The position numbers and the translations under genes are program-made. The notes below the pieces were generated by a model. The model ran no database searches. It was given only the letters and a program-made list of their open reading frames with translations, and was not told the origin of the DNA. Below are positions 23,127 to 38,271 of a stretch of 41,359 nt of DNA, piece by piece. The number at the start of each line of letters is the position of its first letter. Within the stretch, counting starts at the first letter, position 1. The stretch lies in the IMG/VR virus record IMGVR_UViG_3300004181_000001, positions 1 through 41,359 of that record, one strand, 5' to 3'. Source of the DNA: a virus.

Positions 23127-23741
23127 ATGAACGCAAAAGCAACCCCAGCCGCAGCCCTGCCTGCAACCATCGGGGCCGCCTACGAAGGCGGCTTCTACGG
23201 CGGCCAGATCCGCATGGGCGCGGCGATCTTCGCCGTGTGCTGGGCACCCAAGGCCCAAGGCGATATCAAAGGCCCATGGCTGCCCAGCCACACCGGCGTG
23301 CCGGGCGCCTGCAGCTACTTCGACAGCGCCGCCAACACCCAGGCTATGGCCGACGCCGGCAGCCCGATCGCCAAGCAGGTGCTGGCGCTCGACATCGACG
23401 GTGTCTCCGGCTGGAGCATCCCGGCCCGCGACGTGCTGGAGCTGGCCTACCGGCACCTCAAACCCACCGCGGAAGAAAACTACGTCCACCGCAGCGGCGA
23501 CAACCCCAGCAGCGTGCCGGCGGGCTACCCCTACACAGAAGACTCCCCAGCAAAGACCACGGTCGAAGCCTTCCAGGAGGGCGGCGCCGAAGCTTTCGAA
23601 GATGCCTGGTACTGGTCCAGCACGCAGTACTCGGACGACAGCGCCTGGGGTCAGACCTTCTACTGCGGCGGCCAGGGCTACGGCAGCAAGAGCTACGAGG
23701 GGCGTTGCCGAGCCGTCCGCCTGATTCAACTCAGCACTTGA
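23127..23741 (+). CDS. DGR target protein 1 (DUF1566/C-type-lectin fold)
   Basis: A 204-residue protein from MNAKATPAAALPATIGAAYE (CAGGAG eight bases upstream). The C-terminal part WYWSSTQYSD...AW.Q.F, then KSYEGRCRAVRLIQL, is the hallmark of DUF1566-type C-type-lectin-like folds used as DGR variable proteins. The last 35 residues are encoded by VR1 (23622-23720). GWSIPARDVLELAYRHLKP upstream is also typical of the family. No signal peptide or membrane segment is seen. Codons matching the TR AAY positions now read Asp, Ser, Gly, Thr, Tyr, Cys, Gly, Gly, Tyr, Gly and Ser. It probably acts as a ligand-binding protein with a hypervariable surface. Confidence 0.88.
   Translation: MNAKATPAAALPATIGAAYEGGFYGGQIRMGAAIFAVCWAPKAQGDIKGPWLPSHTGVPGACSYFDSAANTQAMADAGSPIAKQVLALDIDGVSGWSIPARDVLELAYRHLKPTAEENYVHRSGDNPSSVPAGYPYTEDSPAKTTVEAFQEGGAEAFEDAWYWSSTQYSDDSAWGQTFYCGGQGYGSKSYEGRCRAVRLIQLST
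23622..23720 (+). repeat. DGR variable repeat 1 (VR1)
   Basis: It aligns without gaps to TR (offset 1223) for 99 bases. 83 are identical and 16 differ, every one at a TR adenine: TR positions 24860, 24864, 24872, 24873, 24879, 24884, 24887, 24888, 24893, 24894, 24899, 24900, 24902, 24905, 24906 and 24909. All eleven AAY codons of the TR are altered. The shared 3' end GAGGGGCGTTGCCGAGCCGT is the likely IMH region. Confidence 0.95.
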
Positions 23742-23773
23742 ATCCTTCAATTCTTTAACTCTGAAAGTTCACC

Positions 23774-24283
23774 ATGGATGCCACCATCAGCATTGATCTT
23801 CAACTGACCGAGCGCTCGCGAATCCTGCTCGACGCACTGGCCAAAGCGTTGCCGCCGCGCGTCGTTGCACCGGCGCCAGACGACGCCGTGCAGACAACTG
23901 CACAGCCCGACAACGGCTTCCTCAAAATCGGGCAGCACTCTGCGGACGTAGGCGGCATTTACGCCGGCATCGCGCGCGGCCTGGACGGCGAAGCCGATGG
24001 CCACCTATATCTCCTCGACGACAAGCCCACCACGGAACTGGCATGGGCGGCCGCCAAAGAATGGGCAAACGGCCTGGGCAACGGCGCCCGCCTGCCCACC
24101 CGCTTCGAAAGCGCCCTGCTTTACGCCAACCTGCAGGACAAGTTTGAAAGCGGCTGGCACTGGACCGGCACGCAGTACTCGGACAGCGGCGCCTGGCTTC
24201 AGGACTTCGGCAACGGCGACCAGAGCACCGGCGGCAAGAGCTACGAGGGGCGTTGCCGAGCCGTCCGCAGATTAGCCCTTTAA
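23774..24283 (+). CDS. DGR target protein 2 (DUF1566/C-type-lectin fold)
   Basis: A 169-residue protein. Residues 1-30 (MDATISIDLQLTERSRILLD and following) form a short helix that may mediate oligomerisation. Residues about 45-169 are DUF1566-like: GLDGEADGHLYLLDD, then AWAAAKEWANGLGNGARLPT, then WHWTGTQYSD...W.Q.F and KSYEGRCRAVRRLAL. The C-terminus is encoded by VR2. It lies 32 bases after target 1, and the two differ in their N-terminal halves, so they probably recognise ligands in different settings. No export signal is seen. Confidence 0.88.
   Translation: MDATISIDLQLTERSRILLDALAKALPPRVVAPAPDDAVQTTAQPDNGFLKIGQHSADVGGIYAGIARGLDGEADGHLYLLDDKPTTELAWAAAKEWANGLGNGARLPTRFESALLYANLQDKFESGWHWTGTQYSDSGAWLQDFGNGDQSTGGKSYEGRCRAVRRLAL
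24170..24273 (+). repeat. DGR variable repeat 2 (VR2)
   Basis: It aligns to TR (offset 675) over 104 bases with 15 differences, all at TR adenines: 12 A to G, 2 A to C, 1 A to T (TR positions 24861, 24863, 24864, 24872, 24873, 24878, 24884, 24885, 24893, 24900, 24903, 24905, 24906, 24908, 24909). Ten of the eleven AAY codons are changed; the codon at 24887 is still AAC. It extends about five bases further than VR1 at the 3' end (CAGATT). Confidence 0.95.
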
Positions 24284-24303
24284 CCCTTTAATCCTTTCGA
24301 GCC

Positions 24304-24672
24304 ATGACACTGCACACTGACCTGCCGATTTACAAGACGGGGCGCGACTTGGTCGCCCTCGCCTTCAACGTGCAGCAGCAAATGCCGCGAAGCTTCAAGC
24401 GCACCCTGGGCGAGAAGATCACCGTGCACTGCTGCGACATGCTGGACTTGATGGCGCTGGCCAACGCCTCGCGCGGGCCGGATCGCGCAGTGCACATCCG
24501 CACTCTGCTGCAGCGGCAGCACACCACCACCGTGCTGCTGCGCGTCTGCCACGACATGCGCTTTATCTCGCACAAGGTCTGGGCAGAATCCATCGTGCTG
24601 CTCGACAGCATTGGCAAGCAGGGTGGCGGCTGGCTCAAGTCATCGCACCACAGTAAAGCGCCTGCAGCATGA
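24304..24672 (+). CDS. avd: DGR accessory variability protein (Avd-type)
   Basis: A 122-residue protein. LPIYKTGRDLVALAFNVQQQ, then MPRSFKRTLGEKI, then LMALANASRG and LLRVCHDMRFISHKVWAESI match the four-helix-bundle Avd/bAvd family, also related to 23S rRNA intervening-sequence proteins. Avd forms a basic pentamer that binds the reverse transcriptase and TR RNA and is needed for mutagenic homing. The Arg/Lys-rich surface, for example RSFKR, fits RNA binding. It sits between the second target gene and the TR, its usual place. Its TGA overlaps an ATG (ATGA) that opens the reverse transcriptase frame. Confidence 0.85.
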   Translation: MTLHTDLPIYKTGRDLVALAFNVQQQMPRSFKRTLGEKITVHCCDMLDLMALANASRGPDRAVHIRTLLQRQHTTTVLLRVCHDMRFISHKVWAESIVLLDSIGKQGGGWLKSSHHSKAPAA

Positions 24673-26045
24673 CGGTCAAGTCCATCATGCCCGTGCGCAA
24701 TTTGAATCTGGTTGTGCCGCTGGCCCACAAGGCCACCGCCATGCGCACCACGGATACCGCTGCGCCACCGCAGGCCAGGTTCGGCGCAGTTACCCCGCTG
24801 ATCGGCGCAAGCCTTCGGCAGGGCGACGTAGATAGCACATCACGACGCAGTACTCGGACAACAACGCCTGGAATCAGAACTTCAACAACGGCAACCAGAA
24901 CAACAACAACAAGAGCTACGAGGGGCGTTGCCGAGCCGTCCGCAGATTCATTGCCCTACGCATTCGAGGACCTGCTGCAGGCCTACCTCGACTGCCGCGC
25001 CACCAAGCGCAACACCGCCAGCGCGCTGGCGTTTGAGGAGCGGCTCGAGGCCAACCTGATCACCCTGCACCATGAGCTGCAGGGCGGGCACTACCGGCCC
25101 GGCCGCTCCATTTGTTTTGTGATCACCCGGCCCAAGCCGCGCGAGGTGTGGGCGGCAGAGTTTCGTGACCGCATCGTGCACCACCTGCTGTACAACGCCA
25201 TCGCCCCGCGCTTCATCGCCAGCTTTGACGTTGGCAGCTCCGCCTGCATCCCGGGCCGGGGCACCCTGTACGCTGCACAGCGCCTGGAGCACGGCGTGCG
25301 GTCAGTCACACAAAACTGGAACCGGCCAGCCTTTTACCTGAAGATGGATCTGGCCAACTTCTTTGTGGCCATCGACAAAGCCACAGTGCTGGCCCAGTTG
25401 GCCCGCAAGGTGACAGAGCCCTTTTGGCTGGATCTGGCGCGCACCATTCTTTTCCACGATCCGCGCAGCAACGTCGAGGTGCGCGGCAATGCCGCCCTGC
25501 TAGCCCGCGTGCCGGCGCACAAAAGCCTGTTCAACGCGCCGGCAGACACAGGCCTGCCGATCGGCAACCTGAGCAGCCAGTTCTTTGCCAACGTGCACCT
25601 GGACGCGCTTGACCAGTTCTGCAAGCACAAGCTCAAGGCCAGGCACTACGTGCGTTATGTCGACGACTTCATCCTGCTGCACGAGTCACCCCAGCACCTC
25701 AACCAGGCGCTGCAGAAAATCACCGCCTGGCTGCCCGAACGGCTGGGCGCCCACCTGAACCCCAGCAAGACCATCCTGCAGCCCGTGGAGCGTGGCATTG
25801 ACTTTGTGGGCCACGTCATCAAGCCATGGCGCCGCACCACCCGCAAGCGCACCCTGACCACCGCTGCCACCCGCCTGCAAGCCATGCCGGCAGAAGACGT
25901 CTACGCGGCCAGCAACAGCTACCTGGGCCTGCTGCGGCAGGCCACCCACAGCCACACCGACCGCGCGCGCCTGGCGAATGTCCTGCGCGATCGCGGCCAC
26001 GCCGTCAGTGGCGATTTGACCAAGATTTTCAGGAAGGCAGCATGA
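24669..26045 (+). CDS. DGR reverse transcriptase
   Basis: The open frame is 458 codons; the conserved domain begins near codon 95 (SLPYAFEDLLQAYLDCRATK), just after the TR. RT motifs: FVITRPKPREVWAAEFRDRI and HHLLYN; YLKMDLANFF (motif A, about 223-232); GLPIGNLSSQFFANVHLDAL (DGR-type SQ, 295-304); YVDDFILL (catalytic Asp pair, 330-337); LNPSKTILQP and GIDFVGHVIKPW. The enzyme copies TR RNA with adenine infidelity. The start is unclear: ATG 24669 overlaps the avd stop and reads through the TR, and there is no ATG between codon 25 and codon 225. TTG 24951, directly after the TR, would give 364 residues, a normal DGR RT length. Confidence 0.93.
   Translation: MTVKSIMPVRNLNLVVPLAHKATAMRTTDTAAPPQARFGAVTPLIGASLRQGDVDSTSRRSTRTTTPGIRTSTTATRTTTTRATRGVAEPSADSLPYAFEDLLQAYLDCRATKRNTASALAFEERLEANLITLHHELQGGHYRPGRSICFVITRPKPREVWAAEFRDRIVHHLLYNAIAPRFIASFDVGSSACIPGRGTLYAAQRLEHGVRSVTQNWNRPAFYLKMDLANFFVAIDKATVLAQLARKVTEPFWLDLARTILFHDPRSNVEVRGNAALLARVPAHKSLFNAPADTGLPIGNLSSQFFANVHLDALDQFCKHKLKARHYVRYVDDFILLHESPQHLNQALQKITAWLPERLGAHLNPSKTILQPVERGIDFVGHVIKPWRRTTRKRTLTTAATRLQAMPAEDVYAASNSYLGLLRQATHSHTDRARLANVLRDRGHAVSGDLTKIFRKAA
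24845..24948 (+). repeat. DGR template repeat (TR)
   Basis: It begins ACGCAGTACTCGGAC and ends GCCGAGCCGTCCGCAGATT. In the frame used by the targets it reads T-Q-Y-S-D-N-N-A-W-N-Q-N-F-N-N-G-N-Q-N-N-N-N and then KSYEGRCRAVR. It has eleven AAY codons (ten AAC, one AAT), the classic set-up for adenine mutagenesis without stop codons. It is preceded by an in-frame TAG in that frame, so it is not translated as a target protein. It lies between avd and the RT domain. Confidence 0.95.
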
Positions 26046-35244: not shown

Positions 35245-38200
35245 TCAATATCCTTGAAGGGTTGCGGTTACGGTGCCGTTGACGGCGCTATTGGTGTCGT
35301 CGCGTGTGGTGACGGTGCGCGTGGCGCGGTTTTCAATGCGTGCTGTGCGCGCGGTGCCGCCATCGGCCACCAGGGTCAGGCCGATCTCCACATGGCGCCA
35401 TGTCTTGGCAGTGGGGATGACGGTGCCGCCTGCCAGAACGCTGACCAGGCCGACGTTTTCAAACTGGTCTTCAACATCGAGGCTGAATGCCAGCGCCGAG
35501 ATCACGCCTTGAACATCACGGCTTTGAATGGTGACTTGCGCCTCGTAGCGGCCGCCCTGGGCCACGACGGAACCGGGCCATGGCCGCCAGGCCTCTACGC
35601 TCCAGGCCGGGTCGTCGTCATTGGTCCAGCCGGGCTCTGTGTCGCCGGTCCAGCCGGGCGCGTCGCCGTCCCTTCGGTACTCAATCAGGTAGGCGGCGCC
35701 GGCGATTTCATTGGGCAGCGTGAGCTGGGCGCCTGCGTCTGCATCGTCAACAATAAACACGTCGGGCCGGTACGTGACCGCACCGTAGGTGTCCAGCGAC
35801 CAACCAGGGTCGCTGTCCAGCGTCCAGCCCGCAGTGTTGGGGTTCGGGTCCCAGGCCAGTGGCGAAGCGTCAGCCGTAGCCACCAGGTTGCCGCCAACCA
35901 CCGTGGCGCCGGTGTAAACGCCCGGCCAGCTTGCCGCCTTGTAGTCATACGCCAGGATGACGTTGGCCACCAAAGGGTCGCCCAGGTTGATGACTGAAGC
36001 GGCTACATTGCGCGACTCATTGCCAAGTGGAAACTCAGGACTTTGCGACGTGTCGAAGGCCTTGATCATGAATGTGGCCGTGACCGTGGGCCGGATCTGG
36101 ATCATGTAGGGCCCGCCCGGCAACAGCCCGGTGTGCAGCGGCGTGGCATCGCCCCAGCTGCGGTTGTTGCCTGGCTGCCAGCGGATCTGGAAGCCCGCCA
36201 GATCCGGCACGCCGGTCATGGTGGGCCAGCTGGCCAGGCCGTCCAGCGCCACGGCGAAGCTGCTCACGTCAGGCGGCCGCTCAGTCTTGCCGATGACGGT
36301 GTGGCTCACCACCGGGCACCAGTCCCCTTGGCGCCCCTGCCCAGTGACGCAGCGCCCGCGAAACAGCATCAAGTCGCGGTCCACCAGCTCGCCGGTGAAT
36401 ATTTCGACATCGCCCCCGGGAACGGCCGCCAGGGTGGTCCAGTCGTCGCTCAGCACGGTAGCACTCTTGTGTTGCCATTCGACCTTGCCGCCCTGCCGCA
36501 CGTAGCTGTTGGTGATCTGATCCCAGCGCACGCGGGCGCGACTGATCACGGTGCCATCGCCAAGCACCTTCAGGACGGCGGTGCCGCTTTCAATCTGCAC
36601 GCCAGTTGGCACGGGGATGGTGGACACATCGGGCAAACTGGTGTTAGGAATGTCCACCCCGGCGCCAGCCATGGCGTAGTTCCAGTTCCACACCTCGGGG
36701 CCGGTTTCCTGCAGCACATAGACGAGCGTGTTGTTTTCAAACTCGCGGCGCAGGTTGGTAAACACCTTGTTGGCGTAGCCCAGCCGCGCCAGGTTGACAT
36801 TGACGGTGTGCAGCGGCGCGCTGTCATAGCCTTTTAGTGTGGTGCCCAACTGCAGGGTGAGTGGCTGTCGCGCGCGGGCCAGCCGCTGCCAGGCAATCAT
36901 CTGGCAACGTGCCGGCTCATTGACCAGCTCGAAGTTGACCTCGGCCGGCAGCAGCTCGTCGCCGTCTTGCGCCTGGTAGACATCGCTGGTCACCATGTCA
37001 TAAGCCATGCGGGTGTAGCCGGCATAGACGTTCACAAACGTGCCCTTGACAGCGTTGAAGAGGTCGCGCTTGGCGGTGCGCGGCGCCACGGTGATGCCGG
37101 CGCCAGACAGTGTGTCCTCGTTGATCTCCAGCGTGGGTTCTCTGTAATAGCCAGCGATGATCTGCCATTGCCCACTGATCCACACGGCGTCGCCGTCCAT
37201 GGCGTCGAGGATGTGGTTGAGGTTGTCCAGCGGGCTGGCGGCGCTGGTGAGTTGGCCGTTGGCCTGGTAACGCTGGTCTAGCCTGGTCGGGCTGAAATAG
37301 AGTCCCTCGTCACACACATTCGCGCTTGCCAGCAATTCCCCGGCATGCACCTCTGCATGAAGCGTTTTCGGAGCAAATCCACTGTTTACCATCAACCAGC
37401 GAGCCAGCAGCGCTGGATTGCGGGTCCACGCCGTGGCATCGAGCCGGGGATCGTAGGCCCTCACGCCACGCGTCACGGCGCTGATGTTGGGCACGCCGAT
37501 CTGGCCTAGGATGTTGTAGTCGGCCTCCATCACGCAAGTCACGTAGCAAATGCCAGTGCCCTTTCGGCTGGCGTCCCAGGCACCCGGAATGCCGGCAGCC
37601 GCCGCCGCGGCTATAAGCTCGGGAGCGGCGGCCTGACCAGGTGAGCCCAGGTACTTCCTGATGTAGAACAGCGGCTGCGTTTCCACCACCGTGTAGTTCA
37701 CATTGGTGAAGGTGGTGTAGACGGGGTTCTCGCCACCTTGCGTCATGGCCATCACGACCGCAGTGCTATCTATGCGCGTCGGCGTGCGAGACAACACTAC
37801 TGGTTGCCCCTCCGGGAAACTTTCGCTGTAAGTGTTGCTAATGACGCGCACGTACTTGGCCGGCGCAATCACCGCGCCGCTGCCGTCCAGCGTGACCGGC
37901 TCATGGTTGAACATGATGGTTTCAATGGCGTCGCACTCATGCCCGGCCAGCACCACCCCAAAGGCGTGGAAGTTGCGCAGCGGGCCGTAGGTAAACCAGC
38001 AGGCCAGCGGGCCGCTGGCCTCGTCGCGGCCCAAAATGATGTTGCGCGGCTGGATGGCGCTGCGGATCACCGTGGTGCGGTCTACCAGCCCGGCGTTGAA
38101 AGCGGCGCGCTGCTGTTCGGCGGCGGCGCGCTGGGCTGCTTCGGCCTTCTTTTGCGCGCGATTGGCCATGGCGCTGCTGATGGCAAATGACGCCACTGCA

Positions 38201-38271
38201 AACACAATCTGTCCAACCGTGATGGTGCCAACCACTACGGTGCTGAGGGCGACTGCAATTGCTGCCGGCAT
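35245..38271 (-). CDS. Tail tip / host-specificity protein (J-like)
   Basis: A 1008-residue protein. The N-terminal hydrophobic segment (VVVGTITVGQIVFAVASFAI, about 10-35) and an Ala/Gln-rich coil (RAQKKAEAAQRAAAEQQRAA) are followed by tail-hub-like domains and fibronectin-like repeats to the C-terminus. Size and place fit gpJ-type tail proteins, which bind the host receptor and close the tail tip. The stop at 35245 lies one base before the fibre start. Confidence 0.8.
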   Translation of the reverse strand: MPAAIAVALSTVVVGTITVGQIVFAVASFAISSAMANRAQKKAEAAQRAAAEQQRAAFNAGLVDRTTVIRSAIQPRNIILGRDEASGPLACWFTYGPLRNFHAFGVVLAGHECDAIETIMFNHEPVTLDGSGAVIAPAKYVRVISNTYSESFPEGQPVVLSRTPTRIDSTAVVMAMTQGGENPVYTTFTNVNYTVVETQPLFYIRKYLGSPGQAAAPELIAAAAAAGIPGAWDASRKGTGICYVTCVMEADYNILGQIGVPNISAVTRGVRAYDPRLDATAWTRNPALLARWLMVNSGFAPKTLHAEVHAGELLASANVCDEGLYFSPTRLDQRYQANGQLTSAASPLDNLNHILDAMDGDAVWISGQWQIIAGYYREPTLEINEDTLSGAGITVAPRTAKRDLFNAVKGTFVNVYAGYTRMAYDMVTSDVYQAQDGDELLPAEVNFELVNEPARCQMIAWQRLARARQPLTLQLGTTLKGYDSAPLHTVNVNLARLGYANKVFTNLRREFENNTLVYVLQETGPEVWNWNYAMAGAGVDIPNTSLPDVSTIPVPTGVQIESGTAVLKVLGDGTVISRARVRWDQITNSYVRQGGKVEWQHKSATVLSDDWTTLAAVPGGDVEIFTGELVDRDLMLFRGRCVTGQGRQGDWCPVVSHTVIGKTERPPDVSSFAVALDGLASWPTMTGVPDLAGFQIRWQPGNNRSWGDATPLHTGLLPGGPYMIQIRPTVTATFMIKAFDTSQSPEFPLGNESRNVAASVINLGDPLVANVILAYDYKAASWPGVYTGATVVGGNLVATADASPLAWDPNPNTAGWTLDSDPGWSLDTYGAVTYRPDVFIVDDADAGAQLTLPNEIAGAAYLIEYRRDGDAPGWTGDTEPGWTNDDDPAWSVEAWRPWPGSVVAQGGRYEAQVTIQSRDVQGVISALAFSLDVEDQFENVGLVSVLAGGTVIPTAKTWRHVEIGLTLVADGGTARTARIENRATRTVTTRDDTNSAVNGTVTATLQGY

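Follow-up and report, generated by a model that had tools for sequence, protein, structure and literature searches.

Diversity-generating retroelements (DGRs) are usually described as systems that randomise template adenines, with the spared ones put down to selection or codon choice. The DGR examined here lies in an IMG/VR virus record (IMGVR_UViG_3300004181_000001), all 41,359 bases of which constitute our window, and consists of two C-type-lectin-like targets, the accessory protein Avd, a template repeat (TR) and a reverse transcriptase (RT). The system itself is of a known kind: it shares with the BPP-1 DGR (mtd, avd, TR, brt) the order target-Avd-TR-RT, A-only transfer and a lectin-type target, and the best PDB sequence match of its RT is the entry group 8ub7-8ube, which we take to be the BPP-1 complex. 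As in the group 3 DGRs of the DiGReF survey, the TR overlaps the 5' end of the RT open reading frame (ORF); that survey called the substitutions "essentially random" and argued against a strong enzymatic bias, and its accessible text, unlike the present analysis, reports no neighbour context (PMC3521204). The Treponema denticola DGR, in the portions of its description available to us, likewise combines lectin-fold targets with A-directed change, but its Lys codons are hypervariable, whereas AAG is nearly constant in the RT clade of the window, hereafter clade A (PMC4891356). For BPP-1 bRT, the accessible text of Unlu et al. 2026 on unselected complementary DNA (cDNA) states that the base 3' of a template adenine outweighs the 5' base and that G misincorporation is lowest at NAG (0.08%; the text gives no total NAG rate); clade A shares the governing role of the 3' base, and the near-complete immunity of adenines followed by G (ApG) that we find in clade A has no description in that text (PMC12875486). 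Nor did we find a report of ApG immunity in the literature searched, which left out most subscription papers and figures. The new part is that the spared adenines are mostly explained by a 3'-G context rule, nearly absolute in clade A and absent or reversed elsewhere; we consider it probable that the clade A RT reads ApG faithfully and that 3'-base context accounts for most of the sparing.

Adenines followed by G are spared in clade A

A gapless 99-base alignment of the TR with the two variable repeats (VR1 and VR2) reproduced the pattern described by the first-pass annotation: 16 differences in VR1 and 15 in VR2, each of them at a TR adenine within one of eleven AAY codons (Y, pyrimidine), 12 other TR adenines unaltered in both VRs, and 16 positions, again all TR adenines, at which VR1 and VR2 differ from each other. 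The AAY codons hold 22 adenines, each altered in VR1, VR2 or both, and TR-VR2 identity extends five bases beyond the 99, to TR 24948. Chance is excluded both for the A-only pattern (random positions, P = 1.9e-9 for VR1 and 8.6e-9 for VR2) and for the AAY-only pattern (given A, P = 3.4e-5 and 9.2e-5), and independent diversification of the two targets by DGR hypermutation is upheld. The accompanying estimate for NNY substitution (15 amino acids, no stop; 15^11 = 8.6e12 variants) is arithmetically correct, but 24 of the 31 changes are A to G, which lowers the effective diversity. Seven of the untouched adenines precede G (TR offsets 4, 31, 52, 67, 69, 76 and 89), one more is the leading A of AAG (offset 66), and the other four lie in ACG, TAC, GAC and TAC (offsets 0, 7, 13 and 73).

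RT searches yielded 80 viral and 80 genomic clade A loci, which served as natural replicates. A first scan for repeats differing solely at A left 297 non-redundant pairs, drawn from 143 loci, after 22 duplicates, nine pairs with two or more non-A mismatches, eight loci without a TR and three with fewer than five changes had been dropped; a second, seeded scan gave 301 clade A TR-VR pairs from 145 loci, including four phage records. Over all clades, the seeded scan found an A-only repeat in 331 of 420 sequences (529 pairs), and 463 pairs were kept for context counts once 45 duplicates, 16 with a short upstream ORF and five with ambiguous frames had been removed. The clade A loci are kin, falling into 61 TR clusters with up to 49 loci each.

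Across the 301 pairs, ApG adenines were changed at 5 of 730 interior sites, as against 3231 of 5970 other adenines (1670/2603 before A, 1205/2560 before C and 356/807 before T). The ApG rate, 0.68%, is near that of non-A bases (22/9919), itself biased low because pairs were admitted with at most one non-A mismatch. Codon by codon, the first scan gave 2/669 for the adenine of CAG, 154/291 for GAC, 123/257 for GAT, 46/86 for TAT and 1180/2465 for the second A of AAC, and interior second-position adenines of the stricter 301-pair set were changed at 144/270 (GAC), 121/253 (GAT) and 37/66 (TAT). The clade A rule is "A not followed by G" rather than "AAY": the exclusivity of AAY codons asserted at first pass stands for the window's own repeats and fails as a rule of the system, in which GAC, GAT and TAT mutate too. 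The pattern recurred in held-out material, with ApG changed at 0 of 102 sites in the last viral scan (37 pairs) and, in a novel-core test made up of unseen TR cores plus three genome loci, at 0 of 83 sites against 317 of 552 other adenines.

Selection on the lectin fold and a mutagenesis boundary

While its DGR hypermutation, independent diversification and NNY count stood, the first-pass annotation had offered fold selection and a sharp mutagenesis boundary as the two options for the spared adenines, and in this it was not supported. Purifying selection on the lectin fold, removing CAG, AAG, GAG and AGC variants after all adenines had been mutated alike, would fit the near constancy of Gln columns 2, 13 and 20 in VRs and the near invariance of W130, F145 and Q150 across the target family, and it has a parallel in the accessible account of selected BPP-1 reporters, which retained coding adenines although the cDNA was mutated throughout (PMC12875486). 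We nevertheless judge it improbable as the main cause, since ApG was also spared at columns where relatives tolerate change, at fourfold positions and in disrupted copies. With column and codon position as strata, the 13 tolerant columns had 3 changed adenines among 89 ApG sites where 46.8 were expected (Cochran-Mantel-Haenszel chi2 97.6). Column 16, codon position 2, was changed in 1/34 GAG, 5/13 GAA and 61/101 GAT codons, so that GAG and GAA, both Glu, behave differently at one column, and at column 26 AGC was changed in 0/24 cases (nine TR clusters) against 116/156 for position 1 of AAC. Fourfold third-position interior adenines were changed at 0/17 ApG, 9/16 ApA and 18/88 ApT sites in the first pair set and at 0/5, 12/22 and 18/88 in the stricter one; fourfold sites beyond the interval from first to last change were not pooled, since the interval is defined so that any adenine beyond it is unmutated and the argument would be circular.

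The first-pass annotation had suggested that non-functional target copies would separate mutagenesis bias from selection, and a small natural version of that comparison is provided by five disrupted clade A VR copies, two with an in-frame nonsense codon (L019, L028) and three with no reading frame upstream (L032, L130 and L137, two of them short matches). In these copies ApG adenines were changed at 0 of 25 sites and other adenines at 49 of 91; the two nonsense-bearing copies alone gave 0/13 and 24/48. Four tests (columns, fourfold sites, disrupted copies and replication) concur that selection is mainly not the cause of ApG silence, even if it may still contribute at conserved Gln columns. In the L019 VR (359-458) and the L028 VR (2779-2885), the nonsense codons fall at AAG sites (AAG to TAG) in the TR-homologous frame; AAG is the weak spot of the clade A template, which is otherwise stop-free.

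A sharp boundary between the last AAY codon and K-S-Y-E would fit the absence of change 3' of offset 64 in the window, but the relatives leave it scarcely any likelihood. Their column 28, the window's Tyr of K-S-Y-E, was changed at 207 of 434 non-ApG adenines, and mutagenesis therefore passes that point; column 26 (the window's Ser) was changed at 218 of 364 such adenines and column 29 in part (10/48), and the two CAGs inside the core, where no boundary applies, showed the same silence as the CAGs at the ends. When rates for each codon and column are drawn from loci outside the window's TR cluster, 1.58 changes are expected in 26 observations, and the probability that every non-AAY adenine stays silent in both VRs is P = 0.17, which leaves nothing that requires a boundary.

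RT clades, template codons and the probable cause of the proposed lock

Outside clade A, ApG adenines were changed at 6/19 sites in clade B (BPP-1 relatives), 13/61 in clade C (relatives of Vibrio phage VP58.5), 82/85 in clade D (cr50_1 relatives) and 1/8 in clade E (small gut sets); more distant DGRs, for which 12 of 20 genome regions gave pairs and eight of those had ApG sites, showed 10/22 at eight loci. The pooled all-clade rate, 107/903, masks opposite behaviours and was set aside. A locus with an RT 48% identical (L440) had ApG changed at 0/6 sites and falls with clade A in the RT tree, where clade A and the held-out RTs together form one monophyletic group of 77 tips (support 0.999). 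The V of YVDD was considered as the cause of the lock: YVDD occurs in all 145 clade A RTs, but the lone clade B locus that has it showed ApG changed at 2/6 sites, so V alone is insufficient. The base spectrum of changes is also clade-dependent, second adenines of AAC having become G, T and C 575, 328 and 132 times in clade A versus 72, 58 and 51 times in BPP-1 relatives. Among clade D loci (L334, L339, L342, L344, L345, L346 and others), 79 TR CAG adenines appeared in VRs as 73 G and 4 T, with 2 unchanged, and this CAG-to-G change occurs at many positions while adjacent adenines are random; a clade D RT carries the motifs IGNYLSQ and YADD.

Templates seem to avoid Lys, Gln and Glu where ApG is unprotected and to keep them where it is protected. 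Counting one TR per cluster, these codons make up 278/2070 (13.4%) of clade A TRs versus 14.2% of the rest of the targets, whereas they are nearly absent from the TRs of clades B (5/651, 0.8%), C (13/1400, 0.9%) and D (18/1093, 1.6%) versus 10-18% in the rest of those targets, a contrast for which fold selection alone gives no account. In clade A TRs they are written as NAG in 268 of 278 cases (96%) versus 599 of 1025 in the rest of the targets (p = 3e-41), and a general third-base bias is not the cause (fourfold NNG:NNA 129:38 in TRs versus 1024:419; p = 0.10). The preference for NAG over NAA was rejected as proof of a lock: NAA is unfavourable anyway, since its third A would mutate too, and the preference is expected without one. 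On balance, we lean slightly towards the wider proposition that DGR RTs differ by lineage in a near-deterministic adenine-reading rule, with 3' G locking the adenine in clade A (NAY variable, NAG constant), CAG read as G in clade D, and TR codon content following the RT.

ApG could instead be spared by template RNA structure, RNA modification or heteroduplex repair at integration. End products alone are observed, which cannot tell RT from repair or RNA structure, and the RT-15 motif described below shows that a structured template RNA lies beside the TR; yet the effect tracks a single 3' base over many positions and TRs and tracks the RT clade through several bacterial hosts, which an enzyme fits better than local folding or host repair, and we think such a non-RT cause unlikely. 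What the comparisons show directly is the context pattern, the clades to which it is limited and the codon make-up of the templates; we infer that the RT sets the lock and that retrohoming is active in the window element. The RT, together with Avd, would copy the TR-bearing RNA into cDNA and misread template adenines on the way, and this cDNA would replace VR1 and VR2. Misreading in clade A would be set by the base 3' of the adenine, with about half of the adenines before A, C or T misread and those before G copied nearly faithfully. An RT copies the 3' neighbour immediately before the adenine, and dependence on the base copied first points to the primer terminus. The window's untouched adenines would be mostly context-locked (CAG, AAG, GAG, AGC, CGA-G), with those of ACG, TAC, GAC and TAC probably spared by chance in mutable contexts at quieter columns, and clade A templates would keep Lys, Gln and Glu constant inside the variable region by writing them as NAG.

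Several observations weigh against an RT-set ApG lock. All data except the five disrupted copies come from VRs already past selection, and neutral ApG sites number just 17 or 5, most of them close to the 5' edge. The loci are related, and at cluster level the tolerant columns show ApG changed in 3 of 27 units against 991 of 1219. Five changed ApG adenines do exist in clade A, one each in L043, L073, L088, L123 and L151, and four of the window's untouched adenines are neither ApG nor part of AAG. With context-only (trinucleotide) rates and no position term, the window's silence has P = 0.015 (3.0 changes expected, 24 observations), which makes the 5' edge somewhat quieter than context predicts, mainly because of the GAC at offset 13 near that edge. 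In the clade comparison, B and E supply just 19 and 8 ApG sites. Clade C, which does not show the lock, has 12 of its 13 Lys, Gln and Glu codons as NAG; the NAG preference being expected in any case, the argument is built on mutability and on the presence of these residues at all. Finally, Ser in TRs is mostly TCN (TCN:AGY 316:71 versus 910:1264 elsewhere in targets), and the lock is thus not used everywhere possible.

If the ApG lock is real, a second message is written into the template, namely to retain a given residue, and with it the phage can fix Lys, Gln and Glu within a hypervariable stretch, and the varying residues become predictable in hundreds of related prophages, which would be of use for targeted mutagenesis tools. 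The question of bias or selection is reduced to one cDNA sequencing run, and RTs with opposite context rules form a natural set for locating the residues that set adenine fidelity.

The locus and its template RNA

In an Rfam scan of the whole window, RT-15 (RF03018) was the only match: it lies upstream of the TR, overlapping the 3' end of avd and the 5' end of the RT ORF and ending at the TR start, and a BPP-1-type RF03022 downstream of the TR was absent. The BPP-1 locus is arranged differently, with RF03022 downstream of the TR (4819-4951 in L164) and no RT-15 match. Eight of 12 loci tested matched RT-15 (L008, L036, L040, L055, L063, L096, L118 and L137), all in clade A and all with the match ending at most 4 nucleotides from the TR start; in L036 it still ends there, even though the RT ORF begins only some 0.7-0.8 kb downstream of the TR. 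RT-15 resembles a leader for a DGR template RNA. The RT frame of the window is open through the TR, in a frame other than that of the VRs, as it is at 100 of 145 clade A loci, 39 of which have no ATG within the TR in that frame; the remaining 45 loci, one TR cluster, have a stop inside the TR in the RT frame and an ATG after it. Translation of the RT may run across its own template or begin within it. That the RT N-terminus upstream of the TR is a conserved protein was considered, many relatives matching from residue 1, with an ATG in an ATGA overlap with avd; yet the stretch is RT-15, and because of this and of the stop in the TRs of the 45-locus cluster, the upstream conservation is better read as RNA.

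The features of the DGR are collected in the table below. The window RT contains PIGNLSSQF and RYVDDF, matching (I/V/L)GxxxSQ, with the SQ motif defined as in the accessible text of PMC3521204, and YxDD. All 31 TR/VR differences fall at TR adenines, Avd is present as accessory protein, and each VR falls within a C-type-lectin-type domain encoded by the 3' end of its target gene, for the VR1 protein by an Lcl_C match below the curated cut-off only. The model of the VR2 protein (predicted local distance difference test score 89.9) has as its best PDB match the Lcl C-terminal domain 8q4e (E = 5.5e-6), and most of the matches ranked after it are C-type-lectin-like proteins. Beyond the one TR and two VRs, no further copy of the repeat was found anywhere in the 41,359-base record.

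Table. Features of the window's DGR, with positions in the window
Feature	Position	Strand	Basis
Target gene 1 (204 amino acids), Lcl_C-like C-terminal domain	23127..23741	+	Pfam Lcl_C E 1.2e-5 (below curated cut-off), phrog_4245 E 3e-29
VR1	23622..23720	+	16/99 unlike TR, every one at a TR adenine
Target gene 2 (169 amino acids), C-type-lectin-like fold	23774..24283	+	profile matches, predicted structure
VR2	24170..24268	+	15/99 unlike TR, every one at a TR adenine
Avd accessory protein gene	24304..24672	+	Pfam bAvd, phrog_3206
RT-15 structured RNA (RF03018)	24656..24847	+	178.9 bits, full model
RT ORF	24669..26045	+	RVT_1, phrog_1423, IGNLSSQ, YVDD; conserved RT part from about 24957
TR	24845..24943	+	99-base ungapped alignment with VR1 and VR2
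Diversified core holding the 11 AAY codons	24860..24910	+	TR-VR comparison
ApG adenine of CAG	24849..24850	+	unchanged in VR1 and VR2
Further ApG adenines	24876, 24897, 24912, 24914, 24921, 24934	+	unchanged in VR1 and VR2
AAG codon, both adenines unchanged	24911..24913	+	first A changed 15/254 elsewhere at that column

A hairpin downstream of the VR, one of the features of DGRs, was looked for as well: a candidate 7-bp stem follows VR1 (z = -1.4), and none was found after VR2 (z = +1.2). The closest genomic relative found, an Acidovorax metagenome-assembled genome, has an RT 80% identical to that of the window and belongs to the same TR cluster. The record also holds terminase, head protease and tail-fibre genes, and the DGR is flanked by a ParB-like gene on one side and unassigned genes on the other. 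Both targets are small stand-alone lectin-like proteins encoded between the ParB-like gene and the RT, separate from the tail-fibre gene at 35245-38271 on the minus strand.

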